A stretch of DNA of 36,712 nt from Marinimicrobium sp. (GTDB lineage Bacteria; Pseudomonadota; Gammaproteobacteria; Pseudomonadales; Cellvibrionaceae). Position numbers and translations under genes: made by a program. The notes under the pieces were generated by a model. It saw only the letters and a list, made by a program, of their open reading frames with translations. It did not search any database and was not told where the DNA came from. This document shows, one piece after another, positions 4,537 through 10,976 of this stretch (the stretch's first letter is position 1; every line of letters begins with the position of its first letter). The stretch spans positions 1 to 36,712 of the forward strand of contig DAHVRW010000006.1 of the NCBI GenBank assembly GCA_027322215.1. Reading direction: 5' to 3'.

Positions 4537-5652
4537 ATGAGCTCATCCCTGATTCCCGAAAAACCTCTGGTGATATCTCCCTCGCTGGCCGCAACCATCG
4601 GCCTGGAGGAGGCGGTCATGCTATCGCTGTTAAACGACGTGGCGCTGGGCCAGCCACAGCCCAACGCGCCTCTGGATCTGGATGAAAGCCAGCTCACCCG
4701 GTTGTTGCCGTTTTGGAACGACTATGACATTCAGCGCATTAGCCGGAATCTGCGTGATCAGGGGATTATTTCCCTTACCTCCGCCCCGTACCAGGAAAGC
4801 CGACGGCTAACCTTGACCTTTAGCGGCGGCGTTCAAACGCCGGCACCGAGCCGCCCGAGTCGCGCGCCCGGCCCCACCAGAGCCGCGCCCGGCAGCGCCA
4901 ACCTCATTGCTCCAAACTGGCAACCGGATACTGAGCTGATGCGCCATATCGCGCAACACGGCATTCCCGACTATTTTGTGCGCCGACACCTGCCGGAATT
5001 CATCGCCTATTGGCGCGAGCGGGGCGAGAGTCATCACGCCTGGGGGGCACGCTTTCTCAAACATTTGCTGCGCCAATGGCGGGCCGAGGAAACCGATCAG
5101 TTTCGCCGCGACCAGGAAGTGGCTATGCACAGCGACTGGCGTCCGAGCCAGGATGCGCTGGAGGTGTTGGTGAAACACGCGAACATTAGCCTCGCGTTTA
5201 TCGAAGACGCTATCGCTGAGTTCGTACTCTATTGGCGAGAGCGCGGCGACGTCACCCGTACCTGGAACAGCAAATTCATCCAGCACGTCAAACGCCAGTG
5301 GCTGCGCTATAATTCCGCATTGGAGCACTCGACTGAACCTAAGCGGCTGCCATCGGACTGGCAACCCAGCCAGGATGTTTACGACGTGTTGCGCCTGGCT
5401 AATATCGATTTGGAGTTCGCCCGACGACAGGTGCCCGAGTTCACGCTTTATTGGCGCGAGAGCAACCAGGTGCACAGCTCCTGGAACACCAAATTCCTCC
5501 AGCATGTCAAGTACCATTGGGCGCGCCAGCACGCGCTGACAACACCGCAACAGGCAGGTCAAAATGCAGGACAGCAAGCAGTTAATCCAGAAAGTCGCAC
5601 AAGAGATCGAAGCCTCTTCGAGGACCTCACCGACCGCAGCTGGGCCCGCTGA
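4537..5652 (+). CDS. Replication-type protein with three tandem DnaT-like domains
   Basis: This 371-residue protein looks like a primosome or helicase-loading factor. Residues about 15-97 form a winged-helix-like domain (GLEEAVMLSLLND, then NDYDIQRISRNLRDQGIISL). A Pro/Ala/Arg-rich linker follows. Three copies of a DnaT-type ssDNA-binding module come next, at about 128-182, 201-256 and 275-329. Each has the pattern W-x-P-(D/S) ... EF-x-x-YWRE ... W-x-x-(R/K)F-x-x-H. E. coli DnaT, which helps load DnaB through DnaC, has a single such domain. The ATG at 4537 is preferred because the frame upstream is unlike protein and the methyltransferase promoter must fit there; 4438 is an alternative. The 3' end overlaps the next gene by 89 bases. 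Domain identity is from pattern recognition and should be checked by profile search. Confidence 0.8.
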   Translation: MSSSLIPEKPLVISPSLAATIGLEEAVMLSLLNDVALGQPQPNAPLDLDESQLTRLLPFWNDYDIQRISRNLRDQGIISLTSAPYQESRRLTLTFSGGVQTPAPSRPSRAPGPTRAAPGSANLIAPNWQPDTELMRHIAQHGIPDYFVRRHLPEFIAYWRERGESHHAWGARFLKHLLRQWRAEETDQFRRDQEVAMHSDWRPSQDALEVLVKHANISLAFIEDAIAEFVLYWRERGDVTRTWNSKFIQHVKRQWLRYNSALEHSTEPKRLPSDWQPSQDVYDVLRLANIDLEFARRQVPEFTLYWRESNQVHSSWNTKFLQHVKYHWARQHALTTPQQAGQNAGQQAVNPESRTRDRSLFEDLTDRSWAR

Positions 5653-6235
5653 ACAAACCCGCGCCCAGCCTACCGATGACCACATTGATGCGCTCAATGA
5701 GGTGTTTACCCTGTTCCGGATTAACTACCACAACCAATACTACAAGGCCTACAGCGACACCCAGGTTTTGAATCAAATTAAGAAACTCTGGCTGGAAAGT
5801 TTAACGCGGTTTGAGCCCGAGACGATTCGCCGAGGAGCCCGACGGGTCATTGAAACCTCAGAGTACCTACCAACCCTGAACCGTATGATACGCGCCTGTC
5901 AGGGTGATCTGGATGCCTACGGACTCCCGGACCCGCACAGCGCCTATGTGGAAGCCTGTCGCGCGCCTAGCCCCAAAGCCGCACAGCGCTGGAGCCATCC
6001 GGCGGTGTATCACGCAGGCGTGGCCAGCGATTGGTTTTTTCTAGCCAGTAGCGCGGAGCGAGTGGCGTTTCCCGTGTTTGAAAAACACTATCAGCGCCTT
6101 TGCGAACAGGTCATGAGTGGGCACACACTGCCCAAACCGCAGGTTCCTGCTCTGCCCGAGAGTACTGAAACTCCTCTGAGTAAAGAGGAAAACCAGCAGC
6201 GCTTAAAGGCCCTGCGCCGTGATCTCGGTTTGTAG
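5564..6235 (+). CDS. Lambda replication protein P-like helicase loader
   Basis: This 223-residue protein resembles lambda phage P, the loader that recruits the host DnaB helicase to an origin. The layout agrees along its length: a disordered N-terminus, HIDALNEVFTLFRINY, a KKLWLESLTRFEPETI helix, EYLPTLNRMIRACQ (lambda P has a similar flPs..F..wC segment), GLPDPHSAYVEAC, a W-HPAVYHAG stretch, YQRLCEQVMSGHTLPKP, and a C-terminal RLKALRRDLGL like the K-x-x-FGL end of P. The ATG at 5564 lies inside the triple-DnaT gene (89-base overlap) after AGGCAGG, so the two are translated together. No phage genes surround it. It is cytoplasmic. Alternatives are a DnaC-independent primosome factor or an unrelated helical protein, but pairing with a DnaT protein supports the call. 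Confidence 0.75.
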   Translation: MQDSKQLIQKVAQEIEASSRTSPTAAGPAEQTRAQPTDDHIDALNEVFTLFRINYHNQYYKAYSDTQVLNQIKKLWLESLTRFEPETIRRGARRVIETSEYLPTLNRMIRACQGDLDAYGLPDPHSAYVEACRAPSPKAAQRWSHPAVYHAGVASDWFFLASSAERVAFPVFEKHYQRLCEQVMSGHTLPKPQVPALPESTETPLSKEENQQRLKALRRDLGL

Positions 6236-8717: not shown

Positions 8718-10976
8718 TTACGTCTCGGCCACCTCAGCGCGATCTACTTTCTGAAAACCCCGTGGCAGTTTATTGCCGCGTCGGCCGCGCTCGCCCCGAT
8801 AGTGCTCCAGGTCAGTCGCTTTCAGAGTCAAATGCCGCCTACCCGCATGGAGCGTCAGCGCCTGTCCGGGCTTGAGCACGCATACGGCCAGCATATACTC
8901 TTCCCGGGCCTGCGCACGCGCGGCGGGGATATTCATAATCTTGTTGCCCTTACCTCTGGCCAATTCAGGTAACTCGGAAACCTGAAACACCAGCAGCCGC
9001 CCCTCGTTGCTCACCGCCGCCAGCAGATCCTGGGTGACATCCGCGACGGGCTGCGGTGGCAGAATCTGAGCGCCCGCGGGCACCGTAAGCATGGCCTTAC
9101 CCGCTCGGTTCTTACTGTACAGGTTCTGCAAGCTGGTCACAAAACCGTAACCCGCATCCGTGGCCAGTAACGCTTGCTCCGTGTCGGCACCCATGAGCGC
9201 ACCCTTAAAGCTGGCACCGCTGGGCGGATTCAAACGGCTGCTAATGGGCTCACCTTGACTGCGGGCCGACGGCAGGTTGTGAGCTGGCAGAGCGTAGCTG
9301 CGTCCCGTGGAGTCCAGCAACAGCACATTTTGGTTAGTTCGACCGCGCACGGCGAACCTGTACTTATCGCCCGCCTTGTAACTGAGCGCAGCAGGATCAA
9401 TATCGTGACCCCGAGCGGCGCGAATCCAGCCTTTTTCCGAAACCACCACCGTCACCGGATCGGCACTAATGAGCTCTTTTTCACTGAAGGCCTGGGCCTC
9501 AGCACGCACCACCAGGGGCGAACGTCGGTCGTCCCCATAGGTATCGGCCGCAGCCAGCAATTCTTTGCGCACCAGGTTTTTTAGTCTTACGGCGGAACCG
9601 AGAATTTTTTGCAGCTGATCCCGTTCTTTGGCCAGGGCTTCTTGCTCGGCGCGGATTTTCATTTCTTCCAGGCGCGCCAACTGCCGCAACCGGGTATCGA
9701 GAATGTAATCCGCTTGCAGCTCGCTCAAGCCGAAGCGCTCCATCAACACCGCTTTGGGGTGCTCCTCGGTGCGAATAATGTGGATCACTTCGTCAATATT
9801 TAGAAATGCGATCAGCAACCCATCTAACAAATGCAACCGGTGCTCTACCTTGTCCAACCGATATTGCAAACGCCGCCGGGTAGTGACGGTACGGAAACTG
9901 AGCCACTCGGACAGGATCTGTTGCAATCCACGCACACCGGGGCGCCCGTCCACACCTATCATGTTCATATTAACGCGGTAGCTTTTTTCCAGATCGGTGC
10001 TGGCAAACAGGTGTGCCATCAGCTGTTCCACATCGACCCGGTTAGAGCGGGGTACGATCACCAGGCGCGTGGGATTCTCGTGGTCAGATTCATCCCGTAA
10101 ATCAGCCACCATGGGCAGCTTCTTGGCCTGCATTTGCGCCGCGATCTGCTCCAGCACCCGGGAACCACTGACTTGATGCGGCAACGCCGTAACGACGAGA
10201 TCACCCGATTCTTTATCCCGCTGCCACACAGCGCGCATACGCAAGCTGCCGCGCCCACTGTCGTACATTTTCAGCAGGTCTTCCCGGGGCGTAATGATCT
10301 CCGCTTCGGTGGGCATATCCGGCCCAAGCACATGCTCACACAGCTCCTCTGTGGTGGCCTTGGGGTTATCCAGTAGATGCACGCACGCGGCGACAACCTC
10401 TCGCAAGTTGTGGGGCGGAATATCGGTAGCCATGCCCACTGCAATACCGGTGGTGCCGTTAAGCAGCACGTTGGGCACCTGCGCAGGCATAACCACTGGC
10501 TCATCCATGGTGCCGTCGAAGTTCGGTTGCCATTCCACGGTGCCCTGTTCCAGCTCCTCCAACAATACTTTGCTGTAAGCGGTCAGGCGCGATTCCGTGT
10601 AGCGCATCGCGGCGAACGATTTGGGGTCATCCGGCGAACCCCAGTTGCCCTGCCCGTCCACTAACGGGTAGCGATAGGAGAACGATTGGGCCATGAGCAC
10701 CATGGCCTCATAAGCGGCTAAATCGCCATGCGGGTGGAATTTACCGATGACGTCACCCACGGTGCGCGCGGACTTTTTGTATTTGGCGGTTGCGTTAAGC
10801 CCCAGCTCGCTCATGGCGTAAACAATGCGCCGCTGCACCGGCTTAAGACCGTCGCCGATGTGCGGCAAAGCCCGGTCGAGAATCACGTACATGGAGTAAT
10901 CCAGGTACGCTTTTTCCGTGTACTCCTTAAGGGCGATTTGTTCGTCGGCGTCGGGCGGTACTACGAGGTCGGTCAT
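8718..10976 (-). CDS. parC: DNA topoisomerase IV subunit A
   Basis: This 752-residue protein is the DNA-breaking subunit of topoisomerase IV, which separates daughter chromosomes. It matches E. coli ParC in length and sequence. The winged-helix region has [20 protein letters not shown]; the catalytic tyrosine is Y126 in [10 protein letters not shown]; and the C-terminal beta-pinwheel domain starts at about 500. Its short C-terminal domain and close match set it apart from GyrA. Residue 86, equal to E. coli Ser80 in the quinolone-resistance region, is Leu (codon TTA), while Glu90 (E. coli Glu84) is kept. The start follows AGGA by 8 bases. A good promoter lies just upstream. parE is not in the window. 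Confidence 0.96.

Follow-up and report, generated by a model that had tools for sequence, protein, structure and literature searches.

Two overlapping genes in a Marinimicrobium-like Cellvibrionaceae MAG are likely to form a domesticated phage O-P module, which would load the replicative helicase for the host instead of DciA or DnaC, most likely at the origin as well as at replication restart. The window, meaning the whole stretch of DNA that was analysed, comprises 36,712 nucleotides of contig DAHVRW010000006.1 (assembly GCA_027322215.1). The original prediction had been made from the letters of this window and described an operon of a DnaT-type protein and a lambda-P-like protein, the pair being a former phage loader module in the service of the host. 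The observation itself was confirmed by our analysis and the interpretation was partly supported. The features of the locus are as follows.

4537..5652, + strand: dopC-like gene (winged helix, three DnaT modules and C-terminal tail), 371 aa, three PF17948 matches
4537..4827, + strand: N-terminal winged-helix domain, approximately residues 1-97, from the AlphaFold2 model
4906..5094, + strand: DnaT module 1, PF17948 at 76.8 bits (cut-off 25)
5122..5322, + strand: DnaT module 2, PF17948 at 99.2 bits (cut-off 25)
5344..5535, + strand: DnaT module 3, PF17948 at 89.5 bits (cut-off 25)
5626..5649, + strand: C-terminal tail LTDRSWAR, proposed DopE-docking peptide, from conservation and likeness to lambda O
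5564..5652, + strand: overlap of dopC and dopE, 89 bases
5564..6235, + strand: dopE-like gene (lambda-P-type helicase loader), 223 aa, PF06992 and PHROG 109

We take this pair to correspond to dopC and dopE, which Brezellec et al. (2017) reportedly put forward as a helicase matchmaker of a third type, the chromosomal pair being said to derive from phage O and P. The assignment is based on three features attributed to dopC/dopE that were found here: a chromosomal lambda-P homolog next to an O-type gene, a host without DciA and DnaC/I (in a MAG that is 86.8% complete) and vertical inheritance in Cellvibrionales. The 2017 paper is also said to have answered, as a proposal, which helicase loader is used in this group. 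Like the window pair, dopC/dopE is found in a group without DciA and DnaC/I, the Cellvibrionales, described in Nat Commun 2016 as the only order composed solely of organisms that lack both loaders, and their helicase loader was left as an open question there (PMC5109545). The finding bears on which protein loads the replicative helicase where both known loader families are lacking. The kind of system is already known, and the proposed docking tail and the mobile look-alikes would be the new part, as judged against the open-licence literature. In this literature the names DopC, DopE and DopCE gave only unrelated papers among the matches listed, Cellvibrionales together with DciA gave only PMC5109545, and no paper was found that ties tandem DnaT to lambda O. 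The review PMC6784150 gives the 2017 paper on lambda-gene domestication (its reference 74) as the source on DciA in Pseudomonas aeruginosa, apparently a mis-citation.

The second protein had been described as laid out like lambda P, and profile searches agreed with this. PF06992 (Phage_lambda_P) matched the 223-aa ORF over profile positions 3-162 of 162 with an E-value of 5e-10 and 39.8 bits, against a cut-off of 26, and PHROG 109 ('P-like helicase loader') matched it with an E-value of 1.5e-22. Lambda P was missed by an HMM built from DopE alone but recovered in the PDB by profile A1, which is broader (E 5.5e-5). When the DopE profile was aligned to the phage P profile with hhalign, 218 columns were matched (99.9%, E 1.3e-35). 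The structure model of DopE (mean pLDDT 79) had the lambda P fold, with phage lambda P as its best PDB match (Foldseek E 6.7e-5). With the aligner VIA, 193 residues were aligned to lambda P (9oa1_Z) with a Z of 9.4 and an rmsd of 8.3, so the domain orientations of the two proteins differ, and DopE residues 39-110 matched the loader domain of SPP1 G39P (Z 8.7, rmsd 1.9). VIA cautions that a Z below approximately 13 between helical bundles may reflect a common arrangement, and the family claims for DnaT and P are therefore based on the sequence profiles. Neither protein of the pair matched the DciA or DnaC/DnaI families in Pfam and NCBIfam. A chance origin of the DnaT and P matches is excluded by the E-values and the conservation. 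Binding and loading of DnaB by the pair are predicted from this homology and fold.

In the first protein, three DnaT-type modules had been read from a repeated pattern, and PF17948 (DnaT) indeed matched the 371-aa ORF in three stretches (E 2.7e-73, 242 bits, cut-off 25), so that both families of the pair were recognised above their cut-offs. In the AlphaFold2 model of DopC (mean pLDDT 79), residues 116-183 had the DnaT fold and matched E. coli DnaT (4ou6) with a Z of 8.2, an rmsd of 2.6 and 29% identity in VIA. PHROG 1032 ('replication initiation protein') also matched three stretches of DopC, the best being residues 193-254 in the DnaT part. Among the O-family profiles of Pfam there was no match to DopC at E-values up to 1. 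As an identity for DopC, the E. coli DnaT equivalog was rejected, since the primosomal DnaT profile NF002770 gave 26.2 bits against the NCBI cut-off of 201. E. coli DnaT shares the ssDNA-binding three-helix domain with DopC but has one module per chain instead of three, and another N-terminal domain.

The N-terminal part of DopC had no match above the cut-off in Pfam. In the model, residues 1-96 matched the N-terminal domain of a RepA initiator (4pql) with a Z of 8.6, an rmsd of 5.1 and 92 aligned residues, and two further RepA-type N-terminal domains were matched (4pt7, Z 8.3; 5kbj, Z 8.1), all with VIA and with middling Z values. Foldseek likewise paired the winged helix with the N-terminal domains of plasmid RepA-type proteins at a probability of 1.00 and an E-value of 0.077. 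As unrelated winged helices also scored a Z of at least 7 against this part in VIA, the winged-helix-like N-terminus of the original prediction was borne out by the model as a fold class only.

According to PMC4132743, each E. coli DnaT protomer contacts two bases, and the residues involved include F124, Y127, W128, K133, F135, K143 and R146. Across 34 of 34 aligned DopC rows, the equivalents of F124 and W128 do not vary in any of the three modules. At the position of Y127 most modules have Y or F, and K143 is mostly kept. The equivalent of R146 is mostly Q, K133 aligns with E, D or Q, and F135 lies opposite a gap; with these contacts changed, the affinity of DopC for ssDNA may differ from that of DnaT. 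One genome has two DopC copies of equal score near the two ends of a contig (G206:C1:9033-9440 and 4668169-4668576), perhaps a duplicated contig end. The only plasmid match was NZ_CP048881.1:2117-2302 in a Spartinivicinus ruber plasmid, a DnaT-like domain that is 34-39% identical.

The C-terminal tail of DopC had been overlooked. Within its motif, L-x-D-x-S-W-A, the residues D, S and W do not vary across 34 of 34 aligned DopC sequences, and the motif was found in 78 of the 79 named loci among the best 80 of 494 relatives; the exception (L084) appears to be frameshifted. A similar tail is found on lambda O. This protein of 299 aa ends in LTNTDWIYGVDL, to be compared with LTDRSWAR in DopC. The window pair also shares the gene order and the lambda-P fold with lambda O/P. 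It differs from it in the length of the gene overlap (89 bases as compared to 4 in lambda) and in the three DnaT modules, in place of which lambda O has another C-terminal domain; the DnaT module profile did not recognise lambda O. An amber allele of lambda O that retains 294 of the 299 residues is described in PMC6022878 as inactive, so that the last five residues are reported to be essential; the same source suggests the C-terminal part of O as P-binding and assumes the N-terminal part of P to be O-binding. Together with the conservation, these lambda genetics suggest that the DopC tail docks the N-terminal part of DopE.

Phage P loci were then scanned for the tail with one P protein as the query, so the loci obtained are close to the Pseudomonas-type P; the upstream ORF could be read in 32 of the 35 viral P loci. 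Within the last 30 residues, the relaxed motif [DN]x[STDG]W was present in 30 of these 32 ORFs and the strict motif [DN]x[SD]W in 17 of them, while two upstream proteins (L276, L277) had no tail. Controls contained the tail motif in 1 of 353 other ORFs of the viral P loci and in 11 of 2,222 ORFs of host loci. The viral loci include many near-copies, with 18 distinct tails, 17 of them with the motif. The motif is our own and not a published family feature, and because it was relaxed after the tails had been viewed, the counts are descriptive. Among phage and prophage O proteins with a DnaT module, two of six had the tail, and L006, L007, L189 and L190 were without the motif. The tail offers a small testable handle, being a short peptide that is predicted to dock the loader and is conserved across phage lambda, host chromosomes and mobile elements.

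We propose that the pair would act in four steps. The winged helix of DopC would contact DNA, or else an initiator or restart protein. The three DnaT modules would then hold approximately six nucleotides of the strand to be loaded, as the conserved contact residues suggest, and would resemble a covalently linked piece of the filament that separate DnaT molecules form in E. coli. That one molecule could grip a long stretch of ssDNA, as had been supposed, is too strong a claim, because each E. coli DnaT domain holds two bases (PMC4132743). In the third step, the tail L-x-D-x-S-W-A would dock the N-terminal part of DopE, and in the fourth, homology and fold suggest that DopE would keep DnaB as an open spiral in the manner of lambda P, the strand would enter, and DopE would be displaced. 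In E. coli, the C-terminal domain of DnaT is described as a filament on the lagging strand, and an oligomer of the N-terminal domain is proposed to recruit DnaB/DnaC (PMC13377028).

Relatives of DopC were also found in mobile elements. Four IMG/VR contigs (L185-L188) encode a protein of 166-214 aa with two DnaT modules and the tail, and L195 is a further such contig. GemA and Mor genes adjoin it in L185, GemA in L188, and an AAA ATPase and a DUF3164 gene in L186; the profile check for Mu genes among these contigs covered L185, L186 and L188. The same two-module gene occurs in Mu-like prophages of two Cellvibrionaceae genomes (L227 in G135, L228 in G143), which have an ORF of transposase size (matching rve in one prophage of the two), an AAA ATPase, GemA and Mor. 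A second type, with three modules and the tail and no winged helix, was found at four loci (L229-L232; twice in G142, and in G137 and G148), some of them near-copies; the one locus that was scanned with profiles (L230) lies in an ICE of the PFL_4669/STY4528 type, near SSB and topoisomerase genes. The Mu-type protein had no copies in cultured phages and the ICE-type protein had no relatives in viral contigs. No P was detected by the P profile in the stretches around the Mu-type and ICE-type copies, and several neighbouring ORFs in L227, L186 and L230 match other families (DUF3164, DUF2786, TraI_2_C). The P-like neighbours of L189 and L190 likewise escape the P profile and Pfam or are hardly recognised by them, so the mobile copies could have a very divergent P nearby. 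In a further viral contig (L191:2513-3549) a phage-O-type domain replaces the DnaT modules and the tail, LTDCSWA, is kept; a DopE homolog (44% identity) follows directly with an overlap of 1 base. The idea that the tail is a side effect of the 89-base overlap was rejected, as the tail is kept in the Mu-type (7 of 7) and ICE-type (4 of 4) copies, for which no adjoining P was detected, and also in L191, where the upstream domain is another one and the overlap is 1 base.

In E. coli, the PriA primosome initiates the replication of Mu together with DnaT, DnaB and DnaC, as described in PMC3325207. Modules and tail of the DopC type in a Mu-like phage suggest that DopC is the local counterpart of DnaT, with a tail that would call DopE. 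Beyond this, the chances seem evenly balanced that the tail serves lambda-P-type loaders as a portable docking tag, and that Mu-like phages and ICEs use DopC look-alikes to call the DopE-DnaB of the host to their own single-stranded DNA. If so, one docking tag would be common to lambda O, to the DopC of a whole bacterial group and to mobile elements, and DopC would join functions that are split in E. coli, namely recruitment by DnaA or DnaT and loading by DnaC. The modules and tail in the Mu-like and ICE copies suggest that these elements copy the helicase-recruiting protein of their host, which would independently support the role of DopC.

A sample of 115 genomes from the GTDB order was surveyed for helicase loaders. 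A P homolog, found with the DopE alignment, was present in 71 genomes, DnaT modules in 70 (all within the 71) and DciA in 35. DnaT modules and DciA occurred together in none of the 115. P and DciA coincided in one genome (G060), which has a prophage-type P and no DnaT module. Neither a P homolog nor DciA was found at first in 10 of the 115 genomes. A gammaproteobacterial DciA alignment then recovered DciA (E < 1e-3) in G035, G043 and G109, the last with an internal stop, and gave weak matches with stops (approximately 0.011) in G080 and G088. In the remaining five (G022, G045, G052, G070 and G092, 75-89% complete), neither loader was found, even weakly. Strong IstB/DnaC-family matches were seen at G045:C334:2001-2675 (E 1.1e-57) and G043:C15:244729-245283 (E 1.1e-50), either a transposon helper or a DnaC-type loader.

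In the Marinimicrobium MAG no DciA, DnaC or PriC was found; with 86.8% completeness, DciA or DnaC could sit in the missing part of the genome. Its only DnaC/IstB-family matches were weak and lay in frames of 517 and 819 aa, which correspond in size to DnaA and Lon. The loading of DnaB by DciA and DnaC/DnaI is the job proposed for the pair as well. A second loading route, one of the roles first considered for the pair, is unlikely given that the MAG has no detected DciA or DnaC and that DnaT and DciA exclude each other in the 115 genomes, and the pair is probably the main loader. The idea of a second loader beside DciA or DnaC was rejected, as neither was found in the MAG.

The pair was not confined to prophages, and DopC-type modules were present in 143 of 144 genomes of the family. 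The 494 relatives came from a scan of genome contigs, and the named ones among the best 80 were mostly from Cellvibrionaceae, Halieaceae and their kin. At an E-value of 1e-10, a class-wide search found DopC in 6 of 369 genomes, the genome of the window included. Four of the five others are of 0.9-1.5 Mb, and a DopE-type gene adjoins DopC in four of the five, with one partial match. We consider it unlikely that the pair acts at replication restart only, as a substitute for PriA-DnaT-DnaC, with another factor loading DnaB at oriC. In favour of a restart-only role, DnaT modules belong to the restart primosome of E. coli (PMC13377028), and DopC-like copies are found in Mu-like phages, E. coli Mu being dependent on PriA-DnaT-DnaC in the account of PMC3325207. 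Such a role fits poorly, however, with a MAG in which neither DciA nor DnaC was detected, with the strict exclusion between DnaT and DciA, where DciA is itself tied to initiation according to PMC5109545, and with the retention of the pair in the very small genomes.

The 70 genomes with DnaT modules differ in the number of matches, with three in 48, one in 17, two in 1 and more in 4; in two of the 48 (G071, G100) the matches are partly prophage copies. DnaT and P were seen side by side in the loci that were opened, and the figure of 70 of 70 for their co-occurrence is at the genome level. Single-module hosts are of two types, one (f6, f26, f37) with a winged-helix-like N-terminus and one module and the other (type III; f2, f8, f34) with DopC frames of 148-181 aa that leave no room for a winged helix. 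The tail was found in 18 of 20 hosts of types II and III, with L159 ending in EDTNW and L166 having LTDYQW, and is retained while the modules and the winged helix vary. One two-module DopC without the tail (L236 in G284, a 0.9 Mb genome) ends in a segment similar, on visual inspection, to the C-terminal helix of DopE, and approximately 1.5 kb around it yielded no DopE.

The short type III frames favour a different division of labour, since they are too short for a winged helix plus a module. In this case DopE would load the helicase by itself after recruitment by DnaA, as may happen with DnaC or DciA, and DopC would be an accessory holder of ssDNA and not the recruiter. This reading also has a low probability in our view, as DopE-type matches are present in 70 of 70 genomes with DnaT and the tail of DopC persists where its other parts vary. 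We therefore prefer the joint action of DopC and DopE as the host loader.

An unrooted P tree of 61 rows separated 45 chromosomal DopE and the mobile L191 from 15 phage or prophage P proteins; the support for this split is moderate (81/85) and several phage rows are long. Hosts with mainly three modules and the short type were sisters (100/97). The three-module group (100/99) also contained the mobile P of L191 and a two-module host, L012. This host (G099) has a DopE of the three-module clade, yet its upstream gene has only two weak DnaT modules, in a frame that could not accommodate a winged helix. The tree was built without the relatives from outside the order, of which two have three modules and three have two. 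In a tree of the modules (68 columns), module 3 and the ICE module 3 formed a firm group (100/99), module 2 was weak (63/37) and module 1 was not one group; three clean module clades were accordingly rejected, module 3 alone being well supported. The trees would be read most simply as a single ancient domestication of an O-P pair that had one DnaT module, followed by a gain of modules on one branch and a loss of the winged helix on another.

The gene neighbourhood is that of a household locus. A Pfam scan of 22 other ORFs of the window identified tatB/tatC, a cyclopropane-synthase-type and another methyltransferase, a glucosaminidase, a deacetylase, a topoisomerase IV/gyrase A subunit, hemE, glutamate synthase, aroK/aroB, pilM/O/P and a secretin. 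No phage gene was seen among these 22 ORFs, in agreement with the earlier remark that phage structural genes are not near. The nearest relative in the genome-contig scan was Marinimicrobium sp. ABcell2, with a DopE 90% identical and a conserved gene neighbourhood. The 89-base overlap (5564-5652), already pointed out in the original prediction, was identical in length in 62 of the 79 named relatives, among the best 80 of 494, whose upstream gene could be read. Compared to ABcell2, the pair is under purifying selection (dN approximately 0.07-0.11, dS approximately 1.6-2.0); for dopC outside the overlap the values were approximately 0.11 and 2.0, which are rough as dS is saturated, and for dopE dS was undefined in two further pairs of relatives. 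A recent prophage remnant with no host role, which might be suggested by the homology to phage P and to O-P pairs in prophages of this order, was rejected as practically excluded by the household neighbours, the conservation across families, the purifying selection and the absence of DopC from 50,697 phage records at 1e-3. The gene for the topoisomerase IV/gyrase A subunit (window positions 8718-10976) was close to dopCE in 17 of 100 compared loci.
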